From a virus: DNA of 24,330 nt. The notes under the pieces are model-generated. The model had not been told where the DNA came from, did not search any database, and was given only the letters and a program-made list of their open reading frames with translations. Positions 10,401 through 24,330 of the stretch are shown here, piece after piece; position 1 is the first letter of the stretch, and the number at the start of each line of letters is the position of its first letter. The position numbers and the translations under genes were made by a program. Where the stretch lies: positions 1 through 24,330 of the IMG/VR virus record IMGVR_UViG_3300019776_000050; one strand, 5' to 3'.

Positions 10401-11312
10401 ATGTCCCAAACGATGCTGCAACTAGTGCAACAGACAACCGCAGAGCTAAATTTGGCTGTGCCAACTTATGTTGCTGGTAATACTTCTCAAGATGTTCAGC
10501 AAATACTCGCCCTAATGAATGGCGCAGGGTATGAGCTACTGAAAGAACATGATTGGCAAGCATTACAGGTGCAGTATCGTTTCTACACCCAATCTTTAAC
10601 CGCCAACGCAACTACAGTTAATGGTTCATATAACCTAACTTTTGCGCCTGGCACAGATTTAAGCGCAGTAACAAGCCAATGGCAGCTATCAGGCTATAAC
10701 ATTCCTCAAGACACTTATGTAGTTTCAGCAAACAACACGACAAAAGTCGTAGTGATGAGTCAAATGGCTACAGGTAGCGGAATCCAATCCGTAGTTTGCG
10801 CTCAAACTGCGTATAACTTACCAAGTGACTTTGAAACCATTACAGACCGCACCCAATGGGATAAATCTAAGCATTGGGAAATGTTAGGCCCTGAAGATGC
10901 CCAACAATGGCAATGGCTCAAGTCTGGCTATATTTCTACAGGCCCTAGAGTTCGTTGGCGCATCCTTGATGGTCAGTTTCAAATATGGCCTATTATGAAT
11001 ACCAATGAGTATTTAGGGTGGGAATATCGCTCTAACGCATGGGCAAGGTCAGCAAGTGGAACGCCACAACAACAGTTTTTAGCAGATACAGACACAACTG
11101 TATTTGATGACCGCTTGATGGTTCTTTATACCAAACTCAAGTATTTTCAAATTAAGTCATTTGACACAACCGCATTACAGCAAGATTACCAACGCTATTT
11201 GTCAGTTGCTAAAGCCAACGACAAAGGCGCACCTAACCTTTCATTTGCTCCTTACCCATCTAAGGTGCTTATTGGCTACGCTAACCTACCAGACACGGGG
11301 TATGGCAGTTAA
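10401..11312 (+). CDS. Head-to-tail adaptor protein (gp4/gp11-like position)
   Basis: A 303-residue protein that probably docks under the portal ring and links it to the tail hub. The N-terminal ~55 residues, MSQTMLQLVQQTTAELNLA then ILALMNGAGYELLKEHDW, form a helical bundle like that of tail-adaptor proteins; the centre is beta-rich, and the last third (FDDRLMVLYTKLKYFQIKS, then LQQDYQRYL) returns to helices. The helix-beta-helix layout and the place between coat-proximal genes and the gp10-like hub match P22 gp4 or T7 gp11-type connectors, though it is larger than P22 gp4. The stop TAA lies in a TTAA palindrome that also forms the stop of the HNH gene on the other strand. Call by layout and context, moderate certainty. 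Confidence 0.65.
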   Translation: MSQTMLQLVQQTTAELNLAVPTYVAGNTSQDVQQILALMNGAGYELLKEHDWQALQVQYRFYTQSLTANATTVNGSYNLTFAPGTDLSAVTSQWQLSGYNIPQDTYVVSANNTTKVVVMSQMATGSGIQSVVCAQTAYNLPSDFETITDRTQWDKSKHWEMLGPEDAQQWQWLKSGYISTGPRVRWRILDGQFQIWPIMNTNEYLGWEYRSNAWARSASGTPQQQFLADTDTTVFDDRLMVLYTKLKYFQIKSFDTTALQQDYQRYLSVAKANDKGAPNLSFAPYPSKVLIGYANLPDTGYGS

Positions 11313-11791
11313 TCATGTACCCATCTAGTGCCATTTTTAATCCGACTAATCAGACTTTGTCTGACACCATATTCTTCAGCAATAATGCGTTGAAGTCTGC
11401 TGTCGTTGCGAATGGCAATAATTTGTTCTTTGGTCAATTTAGCCCAATTACAGCGTTCACCAGAGTTGCTAGTATTGTGTTTAACTTTATCAGCATGGTT
11501 ATTTTTTGGCGTATCCCATCTAAGATTTTCAAGCATATTATTTTGATGATTGCCGTCATTATGGCAACCTTCCATTCCTTCTGGGCATTTTCCTACAAAA
11601 GCCTCAAGAACCAATCTGTGAGGTCTTACAACTTTTTGTTGATTTTCTTTCCAAAGATTCAAAAATGGTCTGCCGTCTGTTTTGGCAAAAGTAATTTTTT
11701 TAAGCTGTTTGGTTTTTGCGGAGCGCACATTTCCATGATTAGAAATTTCATATATACCTTCAAAACCAACAACATCAAGCCATTGTTCCAT
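11309..11791 (-). CDS. HNH homing endonuclease (NUMOD4-HNH)
   Basis: A free-standing 160-residue endonuclease that would nick or cut a related, uninterrupted phage genome and spread its own gene by repair. Residues 3-45 (WLDVVGFEGIYEISNHGNVR) are the NUMOD4 DNA-binding motif; residues ~57-99 hold the HNH_3-type nuclease core with H58, the C-H-N-D-G-N-H run at 76-82, ENLRW and N-N-H at 97-99; residues ~116-155 form a NUMOD1-like helix-turn-helix (LTKEQIIAIRND, ending in I-S-R-I-K-N-G). It is antisense to all neighbours and sits exactly between the adaptor and tail-hub genes, overlapping the adaptor stop by four bases. It has its own AAGGGA ribosome-binding site and a likely promoter. The core residues look intact, so it is probably active. 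Confidence 0.9.
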   Translation of the reverse strand: MEQWLDVVGFEGIYEISNHGNVRSAKTKQLKKITFAKTDGRPFLNLWKENQQKVVRPHRLVLEAFVGKCPEGMEGCHNDGNHQNNMLENLRWDTPKNNHADKVKHNTSNSGERCNWAKLTKEQIIAIRNDSRLQRIIAEEYGVRQSLISRIKNGTRWVHD

Positions 11792-22446: not shown

Positions 22447-22961
22447 CAGGTAATTTCAAGAATTGTTTAGAATTGGTATTAAAGTCTGAAGGCGGTTTTG
22501 TTAATCACGAATCAGACCCAGGCGGTATGACCAACCTTGGAATTACCAAAAAATCGTTAGAAGAATGGTTAGGGCATGAAGTTGACGAGAAATTTATGCG
22601 TAAACTAACCCCTGAGATGGCAGCACCTTTATACGAACAGAAATATTGGAGAGCTTGTTATGGTGAAGTATTGCCTAGGGGACTCGACTTTGTTGTATTT
22701 TCCTTTGCCGTTAACGCAGGCCCAGGAAGGTCAGTTAAATTGCTTCAACAAGCTATTGGATGCGTACCTGACGGAGTTATTGGCCCAAGAACAAGAGAAC
22801 TTATTTCAAACAGTAATATTGCAACTCTTATCGTTAAATTCTCAGAAGCTAGGCGAGATTATTACAGAGCATTAAAGACTTTCCCCATCTTTGGGGCTGG
22901 TTGGATAGCACGCACAGACAGGGAAGAAAAAGAAGCAATACAGATGATTAAAAACGGGTAG
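22443..22961 (+). CDS. Endolysin, GH108 N-acetylmuramidase with peptidoglycan-binding C-terminus
   Basis: A 172-residue cell-wall hydrolase that would cleave the glycan strand of peptidoglycan. Residues 9-35 carry the GH108 signature LVLKSEGGFVNHESDPGG followed by T-N-L-G-I-T, with Glu16 of S-E-G-G the predicted catalytic acid. Residues ~66-100 contain YWRACYGEVLPRGLDFVVFS and N-A-G-P-G-R. The C-terminal part (GCVPDGVIGPRTRELI, then FSEARRDYYRAL and FPIFGAGWIARTDRE) is the PG_binding_3 module usual for this family. Length is normal for single-domain phage muramidases. There is no signal peptide or signal-anchor, so export needs the holin. It ends 14 bases inside the oppositely oriented gene at 22948. 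Confidence 0.9.
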   Translation: MTGNFKNCLELVLKSEGGFVNHESDPGGMTNLGITKKSLEEWLGHEVDEKFMRKLTPEMAAPLYEQKYWRACYGEVLPRGLDFVVFSFAVNAGPGRSVKLLQQAIGCVPDGVIGPRTRELISNSNIATLIVKFSEARRDYYRALKTFPIFGAGWIARTDREEKEAIQMIKNG

Positions 22962-23130
22962 CAACCCAAACAACTAATCCTAACGCTACCAATACCCCTA
23001 AAACAGCCCAAAAATGGTCGTATTCGCCTTTTTGAGGCATTTCTAATGCCGTAGCATATTCTGCGTCACGGAACGCCTCAGAAGCCGTTTTATAGCTTTT
23101 ACCTACCATTCCAAAACTTCTTGTACTCAT
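22948..23130 (-). CDS. Small single-TM protein downstream of the methyltransferase
   Basis: A 60-residue protein. The N-terminal ~40 residues are polar (MSTRSFGMVGKSYKTASEAF, then RDAEYATALEMPQKGEYDHF); residues ~41-58 form one transmembrane helix (WAVLGVLVALGLVVWVAT), followed by R-F at the end. A cytoplasmic N-terminus with a C-terminal tail anchor is likely. The ATG overlaps the methyltransferase stop as ATGA and has GGGGGAG upstream. It converges on the endolysin gene with a 14-base overlap. I do not recognise the family. Coupling to the methyltransferase suggests a shared process, perhaps membrane recruitment, but this is inference. Confidence 0.65.
   Translation of the reverse strand: MSTRSFGMVGKSYKTASEAFRDAEYATALEMPQKGEYDHFWAVLGVLVALGLVVWVATRF
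22951..22968 (-). terminator. Possible weak terminator inside the end of the leftward operon
   Basis: Read leftward, GGGT and ACCC pair around TGCT (plus one T-G pair) and are followed by G and TTTTT. The T-run is formed by the last codons and stop of the 60-residue gene. The stem has only four to five pairs, so termination efficiency would be low. Confidence 0.3.
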
Positions 23131-23906
23131 ATTGATACTCCCCCTTCTGTGATTGTGACTTTCATTTGGTCAGATTCATGGACTGCTAATGTATTTGCCC
23201 CCAATGGATATGTTTTATAGCCATGTTGCTTTAATACATCGTCTAAATTACCGCATTTTGCTACCTCGATAAACAATACAGGCTTAAATTGGTCAATGGT
23301 TTTCCATGCGCCAGCTAAGACTTCATGTTCCATGCGCTCTACATCAATCTTAATCAGGTCGCAGCGTTTAAATCCAATGGAGTCAAGGGTAATCATGCCT
23401 ACTTCTTTTTTGGCGGTGATTTGTTGACCTATATCCTCTTTATCAGGATGCTCACGAAGTTCTAAAGACCCAAATGAAGCTGGTTGATAGTAATTAGGTT
23501 CTGGAATGATTAAACTGCCTCTTTCTGCGCCTATTGCCAAATTTCTAGCGGTGACATTAAAACAGTTATTAATGGCGATATTTCCGCACAAAGCGTAGTA
23601 AATCTTTTCTTGTGCTTCTATGGACACTACATGACCCCATGTTGTCATCATGCGCCCCCATTGAACTGTATGAACCCCTATGTTTGCACCGCAATCTACC
23701 GCGATAACCCCATCGCCAAACAATTCACGCCTTTTAATCAAAATGGCTTTTAAAAAATCCACTTCAATTTGGTCGTAGCTGCCTGTATTCATTAGGGAAA
23801 ACCCTACACCAAAACCTTTACCATCCTCAACCATTTTGTAGTCGTTGCGGTTAATAATTAAAGTGCCTTGGTTGGTGGATGTGACTACAAATGCTATTGG
23901 GTTCAT
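23127..23906 (-). CDS. FkbM-family SAM-dependent methyltransferase
   Basis: A 259-residue class I methyltransferase that would transfer a methyl group from S-adenosylmethionine, in this family usually to a hydroxyl of a sugar or polyketide. ATG 23906 is taken because it lies in the linker repeat with its AAAGG ribosome-binding site; a TTG 14 codons upstream reads through the repeat in a non-native frame. Motif I is VIAVDCGANIGVHTVQWGR (residues 67-85), motif II V-S-I-E-A (94-98), and the FkbM signature DLIKIDVERMEHEVLAGAWK lies at 183-202, with LFIEV at 211-215. All key residues are present. It sits in a leftward cassette between two small membrane proteins. Phage or host surface glycan is the likely substrate, which the sequence cannot settle. 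Confidence 0.88.
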   Translation of the reverse strand: MNPIAFVVTSTNQGTLIINRNDYKMVEDGKGFGVGFSLMNTGSYDQIEVDFLKAILIKRRELFGDGVIAVDCGANIGVHTVQWGRMMTTWGHVVSIEAQEKIYYALCGNIAINNCFNVTARNLAIGAERGSLIIPEPNYYQPASFGSLELREHPDKEDIGQQITAKKEVGMITLDSIGFKRCDLIKIDVERMEHEVLAGAWKTIDQFKPVLFIEVAKCGNLDDVLKQHGYKTYPLGANTLAVHESDQMKVTITEGGVSI

Positions 23907-23925
23907 TTCTCTTGTGCCTTTCTTA
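23903..23925 (-). repeat. Linker repeat copy A (before the methyltransferase)
   Basis: One of three exact 23-base copies. Read leftward it starts TAAG, contains AAAGGCACAAGAGAA and ends in ATGA. The TAA is the stop of the 32-residue gene and the ATG the start of the methyltransferase. Copies A and B share three further flanking bases. Confidence 0.9.
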
Positions 23926-24021
23926 AAAACAATACGAAACTGCAACAATAATTAAAAATATAGCCCAATACACCCCATCACCTTCTAAATACCAATAAAC
24001 AAATTTATCACTCCAGTTCAT
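23923..24021 (-). CDS. Tiny single-TM peptide (32 residues)
   Basis: Read leftward from ATG 24021 to TAA 23923. The sequence starts MNWSDKFVYWYLEGDGVYW and continues AIFLIIVAVSYCF. Residues ~17-32 are a hydrophobic segment long enough for one short transmembrane helix; the N-terminal half is aromatic and charged. The start codon shares ATGA with the stop of the 72-residue gene and uses the AAAGG ribosome-binding site of linker repeat copy B; the stop uses the first bases of copy A. No family is recognised. It is below usual gene-finder length limits, but its exact fit between two linker copies argues that it is a real gene. Confidence 0.6.
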   Translation of the reverse strand: MNWSDKFVYWYLEGDGVYWAIFLIIVAVSYCF

Positions 24022-24040
24022 TTCTCTTGTGCCTTTCTTA
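24018..24040 (-). repeat. Linker repeat copy B (before the 32-residue gene)
   Basis: Exact 23-base copy. Read leftward it encodes the C-terminus R-K-A-Q-E-K-stop of the 72-residue protein and at the same time supplies AAAGG and the ATG of the 32-residue gene. Confidence 0.9.
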
Positions 24041-24236
24041 ATTTATTTGTTTCTTTGCTATTTCGTCTTGCCCTAAATTCAACAACTAATCCACGCCATT
24101 CTTTGCGGATTCTAAAATCTAAGTCATGCACTAAATTGCAATCACAACAAGCCATTTTGTAACCCTTACGAATAGGTCTAATCCACTCTGTGTAATCACC
24201 ATCTTCTTCTACTTCATGCTCTTGATAAGTGGTCAT
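24018..24236 (-). CDS. Cys-rich conserved phage hypothetical (72 residues)
   Basis: Read leftward from ATG 24236, which lies in linker repeat copy C. The N-terminus is acidic (EHEVEEDGDYTEW). The core GYKMACCDCNLVHDLDFRIR, then VVEFRARRNSKETNKLRK, is a recurrent pattern in small early-region or accessory phage proteins, always annotated as hypothetical. C30, C31, C33 and H37 are placed for a metal site. The last residues, L-R-K-A-Q-E-K, are encoded by linker repeat copy B and are also the end of the partial gene upstream, so the C-terminus is set by the repeat rather than by the protein. Function unknown. Confidence 0.7.
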   Translation of the reverse strand: MTTYQEHEVEEDGDYTEWIRPIRKGYKMACCDCNLVHDLDFRIRKEWRGLVVEFRARRNSKETNKLRKAQEK

Positions 24237-24255
24237 TTCTCTTGTGCCTTTCTTA
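24233..24255 (-). repeat. Linker repeat copy C (before the 72-residue gene)
   Basis: Exact 23-base copy. Read leftward it encodes R-K-A-Q-E-K-stop of the gene entering from the right edge and supplies the ribosome-binding site and ATG of the 72-residue gene. Confidence 0.9.
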
Positions 24256-24330
24256 GTATTGCTCTAGCAAAATCTTCTAACTCATACAATTTAATTCTGA
24301 ATTGTTCCGATAGTTTTGCTTCAGGATGGA
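24233..24330 (-). CDS. Partial gene at right edge, C-terminal end
   Basis: The leftward frame is open from the window edge to TGA at 24235-24233, about 31 codons: HPEAKLSEQFRIKLYELED, then FARAILRKAQEK. It is helical and charged. The end L-R-K-A-Q-E-K comes from linker copy C. The stop overlaps the next ATG as ATGA. The other two leftward frames contain stops here. Too little is visible to name it. Confidence 0.55.
   Translation of the reverse strand, partial: HPEAKLSEQFRIKLYELEDFARAILRKAQEK

Follow-up and report, generated by a model that had tools for sequence, protein, structure and literature searches.

A 23-nt linker found at consecutive gene junctions of a virus genome is likely to have two roles: as a translation cassette it stops one gene and starts the next, and it offers a short stretch of homology through which genes and gene modules are shuffled by recombination. 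It would thus be a 'boundary sequence' that is itself coding. Its spread, its position at gene junctions, its dependence on a start codon, the exact swap points and an excess of partner exchange were observed directly. Recombination or annealing at identical blocks as the cause, and a phage annealing recombinase as the enzyme, are inferred.

The linker and its copies in the window

The window, i.e. the whole stretch of 24,330 bases analysed, is an IMG/VR virus record whose plus strand encodes portal, major head, tail and endolysin proteins; a leftward operon with three linker copies lies at its right end. Read on the minus strand, the 23-mer is TAAGAAAGGCACAAGAGAAATGA. The preliminary description had reported three exact copies at 23903–23925, 24018–24040 and 24233–24255, and these were confirmed, all on the minus strand. 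No further copy was present in the window at up to 3 mismatches, and chance would supply none (0 in 100 shuffles of the window). The region contains the following features:

24233–24328, minus strand: partial ORF of the NNEPVAW..PLYTHPAKTLTDEEI..FARAILRKAQEK family, 3′ end only, cut by the window edge
24233–24271, minus strand: extended nucleotide-constant block, FARAILRKAQEK-stop plus ATGA; copy C is its 3′ part
24233–24255, minus strand: linker copy C, with LRKAQEK-stop of the partial rightmost ORF, AAAGG at 24247–24251 and the ATG of the 72-aa ORF
24018–24236, minus strand: 72-aa cargo gene ending in KLRKAQEK-stop; the RKAQEK tail comes from the linker
24018–24040, minus strand: linker copy B, with LRKAQEK-stop of the 72-aa ORF (TGA of ATGA), AAAGG at 24032–24036 and the ATG of the 32-aa ORF
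23923–24021, minus strand: 32-aa cargo gene between linkers B and A
23903–23925, minus strand: linker copy A, with the TAA stop of the 32-aa ORF, AAAGG at 23917–23921 and the ATG (23906–23904) of the 259-aa ORF
23127–23906, minus strand: 259-aa FkbM-type methyltransferase (PF05050), cargo gene behind copy A
22948–23130, minus strand: 60-aa gene, ATGA overlap with the methyltransferase without linker; internal comparison

The linker includes AAAGG, the spacer CACAAGAG and ATGA. One of its frames reads RKAQEK followed by TGA, with the TGA lying within ATGA; in copy A the first three bases stop the 32-aa ORF instead. The functions assigned to the individual copies beforehand were confirmed: copies B and C encode the upstream C-terminus LRKAQEK with the TGA of ATGA, all three supply AAAGG and an ATG in ATGA, and copy A ends the 32-aa ORF by its TAA. 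AAAGG lies 10 nt ahead of each ATG, and the gene started by copy A is the 259-aa ORF. The rightmost partial ORF ends in ..LYELEDFARAILRKAQEK-stop, followed by linker C. The longer shared block at 24233–24271, with copy C at its end, is TTTGCTAGAGCAATACTAAGAAAGGCACAAGAGAAATGA. A complete relative of this ORF, in contig L021, has 88 aa. Judged by composition alone, the 32-aa cargo gene probably encodes a membrane peptide; it is too short for a search for relatives. The window stops 75 nt past copy C, and copies farther right cannot be read. Assemblies of these phages tend to break in arrays (here with 24256–24330 at the edge). Elsewhere in the window, an HNH endonuclease ORF lies on the opposite strand inside the tail gene region (11309–11791, minus strand) and is probably a homing endonuclease.

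Spread and conservation at gene junctions

According to the preliminary description, more copies should exist outside the window, each of them at a gene junction and with its ATG at the corresponding position; that only these three existed was one part of its refuting case. IMG/VR has at least 120 contigs with the exact 22-nt core, and a core with another base at −17 occurs in 114 stretches; many further copies thus exist. No IMG/VR contig had the ATG of the core changed to AVG: the start codon is obligatory. The expected position was kept nearly always: the 234 loci analysed (2.1 Mb) contain 429 exact 19-nt cores (AAAGGCACAAGAGAAATGA), and 426 of these start an ORF of 20 aa or more; a reversed control sequence had no match at up to 2 mismatches in the same loci. 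When no ATG followed the core, a start codon lay 3 nt earlier or later in most of the cases listed. Among upstream ORFs of 25 aa or more, 423 of 484 use the TGA of ATGA as their stop codon and 34 the linker's TAA. The copies share one orientation in 148 of 155 multi-copy loci, with a median spacing of 212 nt and a maximum of 10 per locus, and the ORFs behind them have a median length of 67 aa. Whole records hold 1–5 copies each, mostly clustered. Local duplication was ruled out because relatives and unrelated contigs have the element, and a promoter reading was set aside, since the element finishes in a start codon that is required.

After de-duplication, 480 junctions represented 412 different upstream/downstream family pairs (178 upstream and 215 downstream families). 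Neighbour families were clustered without the shared tail, because single linkage with the tail collapsed all of them into one family. Where two junctions had neither neighbour in common, their sequences were 82–100% identical over positions −15 to +3 but only about 27% identical to the left and right of them, except for a partly shared stretch immediately upstream. The linker is therefore far better conserved than its flanks; the reverse had been named as part of the refuting case. The junctions were selected by core similarity, so that the height of this profile is partly built in, but its sharp edges and the unrelated flanks are not. The conserved stretch invariably finishes with the A that follows ATG, its 5′ edge is ragged, and the core from −15 to +3 is conserved better than the 5′ part of the linker.

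This conservation could in principle reflect the peptide, with RKAQEK as a functional C-terminal tag and the DNA conserved only for its sake. Most copies are indeed read in the RKAQEK frame, and the variants RKASEK, RKANEK and KKASEK retain the tail pattern. However, the codons of RKAQEK show an identity of 0.96 versus 0.43 expected, and about 7% of copies are out of frame, the upstream ORF stopping at TAA, yet exact. In addition, distant relatives of the 72-aa protein have other C-termini, without the RKAQEK tail. We regard a peptide-level explanation as highly improbable.

The phages that carry the linker are diverse. Terminase large subunits were identified in 21 of 48 records and represent nine or more groups that are less than 40% identical to each other, one further sequence being partial, and the head-protein family of the window occurs in 5 of 48. 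Terminase matches in L315 (G020), L307 (G025) and L309 (G029) showed internal stops in the profile alignment. The sole strong match among annotated or isolated phages was the metagenomic circular phage MW202753. Only 4 of 84,980 genome species contained the 22-mer, in one contig each; the bins (L122–L125) are labelled Bacteroidetes, cyanobacterium, beta proteobacterium and Nitrosotalea (an archaeon), and their contigs are probably phage contigs binned by mistake. An assignment of hosts from these four labels was dropped, misbinning being the simplest account.

Partner exchange at linkers and at blocks inside genes

We compared the partners of anchor genes (at least 97% identity) at linkers with those at tight linker-free junctions within 2.5 kb. 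With the downstream gene as anchor, two or more partner contexts were found in 24 of 89 linker clusters versus 4 of 165 linker-free clusters (Fisher P = 7e-9); with the upstream gene as anchor the figures were 17 of 88 versus 9 of 168 (Fisher P = 8e-4). Pair counts agree with this result: partner exchange is commoner at linkers than at linker-free junctions. Two properties of a boundary sequence, a conserved sequence at the junctions of exchanged modules and an enrichment of exchange at this sequence over nearby junctions, are both met.

Exchange can be followed at the window's own copies. The window, L235 and L021 have flanking genes in common: L235 has the order FARAIL gene, linker, methyltransferase, 60-aa gene, and L021 the order FARAIL gene, linker, 28-aa gene, 60-aa gene, the last of which also closes the region in both. 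Compared with this arrangement the window carries two extra cassettes. The match between the window and L235 (84% over 1.7 kb) starts exactly at the first base of linker A; L235 retains the methyltransferase and everything after it, and its upstream gene differs. L021 is 100% identical to the window over 98 nt, ending exactly with linker C, and then continues with a different gene; the genes which both share farther on are 82% identical. In L349 and L350, relatives of the 72-aa gene are followed by other downstream genes at the position of linker B. Different cargo between copies in relatives, as had been predicted, was thus found at the window's own copies too (L235, L021, L349 and L350), and an unchanged gene order, another part of the refuting case, did not apply. 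The earlier proposal that small genes are gained, lost and shuffled at a conserved linker is supported by these data, with homologous recombination as the physical cause remaining an inference. A relative of the 72-aa protein in L351 (1501–1731) ends in RRAILKKASEK, a variant FARAIL tail joined farther upstream than the RKAQEK linker.

Further relatives were fetched by protein so that the linker did not drive the selection. In two methyltransferase relatives, L235 and L241, whose first 200 nt show 91% and 82% nucleotide identity, an exact linker precedes the gene, and the upstream gene differs from that of the window. No linker was found with the methyltransferase relatives L236–L240, and a further one, L244, has a copy of the 19-nt core with 2 mismatches. 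The start regions of YqaJ-type nuclease genes had either 0 mismatches to the core or at least 7, bar two cases with 4, of which one is an RKASEK variant and the other a distant relative without evident linker. This split persists among genes 98–100% identical over the first 120 nt. The presence of the linker in homologues is thus all-or-nothing, the RKASEK variant and the two-mismatch copy being the few intermediates.

When 16-mers were ranked by the number of different contexts, the linker came first and other blocks of the same arrays next:

TTTGCTAGAGCAATAC: block encoding FARAIL
ACAGATGAGGAAAT: block encoding LTDEEI
AATGAACCAGTAGC: block encoding NNEPVAW
CACCCATCCAGCAAAGACACTAACAG: block encoding THPAKTLT
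CAACAAGCTGAAATAGAGGC: block encoding QQAEIEA
ATGAACGCAAATGAAC: block encoding MNANE

The codon identity of these block peptides was 0.84–0.98 versus 0.33–0.43 expected from codon usage; conserved peptides of ordinary genes on the same contigs, which served as control, gave 0.32–0.58 versus 0.25–0.46 (the entry KGTREM in the control list is the linker in another frame). Variable segments lie between NNEPVAW and PLYTHP and between LTDEEI and FARAIL, and they are combined freely: we counted 68 combinations of 51 N and 57 C segments (85% identity), in which each of the 8 repeated C segments was joined to at least two different N segments, and 9 of the 10 repeated N segments to at least two different C segments. 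One N-segment module, searched by its own DNA without the linker, occurred in 32 contigs, in which 22 contexts were counted downstream of it and 20 upstream; these contexts switch at blocks. Modules are exchanged at several nucleotide-constant blocks, of which the linker is merely the commonest, and its coding tail probably corresponds to the 3′ end of a single repeated gene family (PLYTHPAKTLTDEEI..FARAILRKAQEK-stop).

These observations bear on the possibility that the linker is only a conserved translation-initiation or regulatory element, as in the start-associated sequences (SAS) of cluster K mycobacteriophages, and that gene shuffling is unrelated to it. A start codon that is never lost, a well-placed AAAGG, the better conservation of the core compared with the 5′ part and a purine-rich, unstructured RNA all agree with such an element, and the conservation of AAAGG and ATGA must partly be due to selection on translation. 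However, among YqaJ and methyltransferase genes that are nearly the same in sequence, some have an exact linker and others lack it altogether, which means that the genes do not need it; nucleotide constancy is equal in mid-gene blocks without a start codon, and partners are exchanged preferentially at linkers. A role in translation alone is therefore unlikely.

Assemblers may join unrelated fragments via short identical repeats, and repeats of 22–45 nt are a classical cause of chimeric joins. Blocks were also about twice as frequent at contig ends, an excess that is expected if assemblers break at blocks. In contrast, 174 of 567 linker junctions recur in independent metagenomes with at least 95% identity on both sides, seven alternative contexts of the N-segment module mentioned above recur in independent assemblies, and a record from another study annotated as a complete circular genome contains a 93% copy of the extended block. 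Furthermore, artefacts would not give rise to a stop/start element across hundreds of contigs. Assemblies made separately from one lake need not represent separate virus populations, and in a few cases only were both alternative contexts of one junction each found in at least two assemblies, as expected from thin sampling. Single junctions may be chimeric, but the whole pattern cannot be, and we judge assembly artefacts a very unlikely explanation.

Proposed mechanism and known systems

In the mechanism that we propose, the 23-mer acts as a ready-made junction, with RKAQEK-stop in one register, a TAA stop in another and AAAGG 10 nt before the ATGA start. As the linker contains all that translational coupling requires, any gene joined on either side would be translated. 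It is probably the 3′ end of a repeated phage gene family (FARAILRKAQEK-stop), and it has come to occupy many junctions between unrelated genes in the small-gene arrays of diverse phages, which are uncultivated and known mostly from metagenomes; there it marks the sites at which cassettes are gained, lost and exchanged. The likely route would be homologous recombination or single-strand annealing between identical blocks of ∼20–45 nt, carried out by phage annealing recombinases or by the host, and the NNEPVAW and PLYTHPAKTLTDEEI blocks within array genes may serve gene modules likewise. Translation and recombination functions go together in this view, since selection tolerates a joint at which one gene is always stopped and the next one started. 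Only products were observed, not a recombination event itself.

The core measures 22–23 nt, the FARAIL form about 39 nt and the PLYTHPAKTLTDEEI block about 45 nt. Minimal pairing segments are 23–27 bp for Red-beta and 31–34 bp for RecA, and Rad52-like phage recombinases including ERF act on such substrates (PMC3945230). The blocks are at or above these lengths, with the 22–23 nt core alone at the lower limit for recombination. The enzyme is an inference: ERF recombinase was present in 13 of 48 records, a minority, and YqaJ nuclease in 6, many of the records being fragments. RecT was rejected as the enzyme, with none in these 48 records.

Lambdoid boundary sequences are described as short conserved sequences at mosaic junctions (cited in PMC3029335 and PMC3233612). 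The linker resembles them as a short shared sequence at module borders and, as inferred here, in exchange by general or phage recombinases. Unlike them it is common to hundreds of unrelated junctions, in phages whose terminases are unrelated. It is also coding, supplying the stop, the ribosome-binding site and the start, and blocks of a similar kind occur within genes. The SAS of cluster K mycobacteriophages, GGGATAGGAGCCC, is located upstream of the start in one phage cluster, and its extended forms (ESAS) stay with the same gene families (PMC3203893). Like SAS, the linker is a repeated asymmetric motif, mostly in one orientation, at the starts of genes of different families. It meets the SAS criterion of lying immediately upstream of the starts of unrelated genes, but not that of sequence. 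Unlike SAS it includes the ATG and the upstream gene end, crosses unrelated terminases and varies between near-identical genes. Phage proteins are also known to shuffle fragments between phages (PMC10684548). Such fragment exchange is similar to what we observed; the difference is that the exchange points here are nucleotide-identical blocks common to intragenic and intergenic sites.

Integron arrays are open-ended and consist of small cassettes in one orientation with a common element between them. The linker arrays share this layout, and their largely uniform orientation and the short spacing given above could be taken as signs of a dedicated site-specific system with the linker as attachment site. 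However, the linker has no folded or palindromic site as expected for an integron-type system: the 23 nt are purine-rich and asymmetric, without dyad symmetry or hairpin. Its 5′ boundary is ragged, several different blocks are used, and, unlike integron elements, it supplies start and stop codons itself. We give a site-specific system hardly any chance.

Neither a description of the linker element nor its sequence turned up in the open-access literature searched. The boundary-sequence idea itself is old; what differs is the linker as a coding form shared across unrelated phages. It has long been disputed whether phages become mosaic through recombination at short boundary sequences that they share or through illegitimate joining with subsequent selection, in part because such boundary sequences have rarely been seen (PMC3029335). 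With hundreds of natural junctions bearing one exact sequence, base-level swap points and neighbouring linker-free controls, the linker system makes this question directly testable. It also explains how tiny genes can be acquired without loss of translation, and the 22-mer offers a sequence tag for tracing communal gene pools of uncultivated phages.

Beyond recombinational shuffling at the linker itself, we lean towards the broader view, held with some reservation, that a large number of uncultivated phages rely on the same set of nucleotide-constant blocks, the linker and those inside genes, to build small-gene arrays and chimeric small proteins combinatorially while translation is kept at each joint; in this way phages with unrelated structural genes would share one communal pool of genes. 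The cargo behind linkers (L022, L066, L140, L173 and L212) includes ADDT (amino acid:DNA transferase), radical SAM/SPASM, DNA polymerase A, Toprim and PD-(D/E)XK proteins, and a YqaJ-type nuclease is also among the cargo. Some of the larger cargo genes suggest DNA hypermodification. On the plus strand of L115 (9.7 kb), nine linkers lie in a single locus, whose cargo includes a 318-aa ORF without Pfam match.
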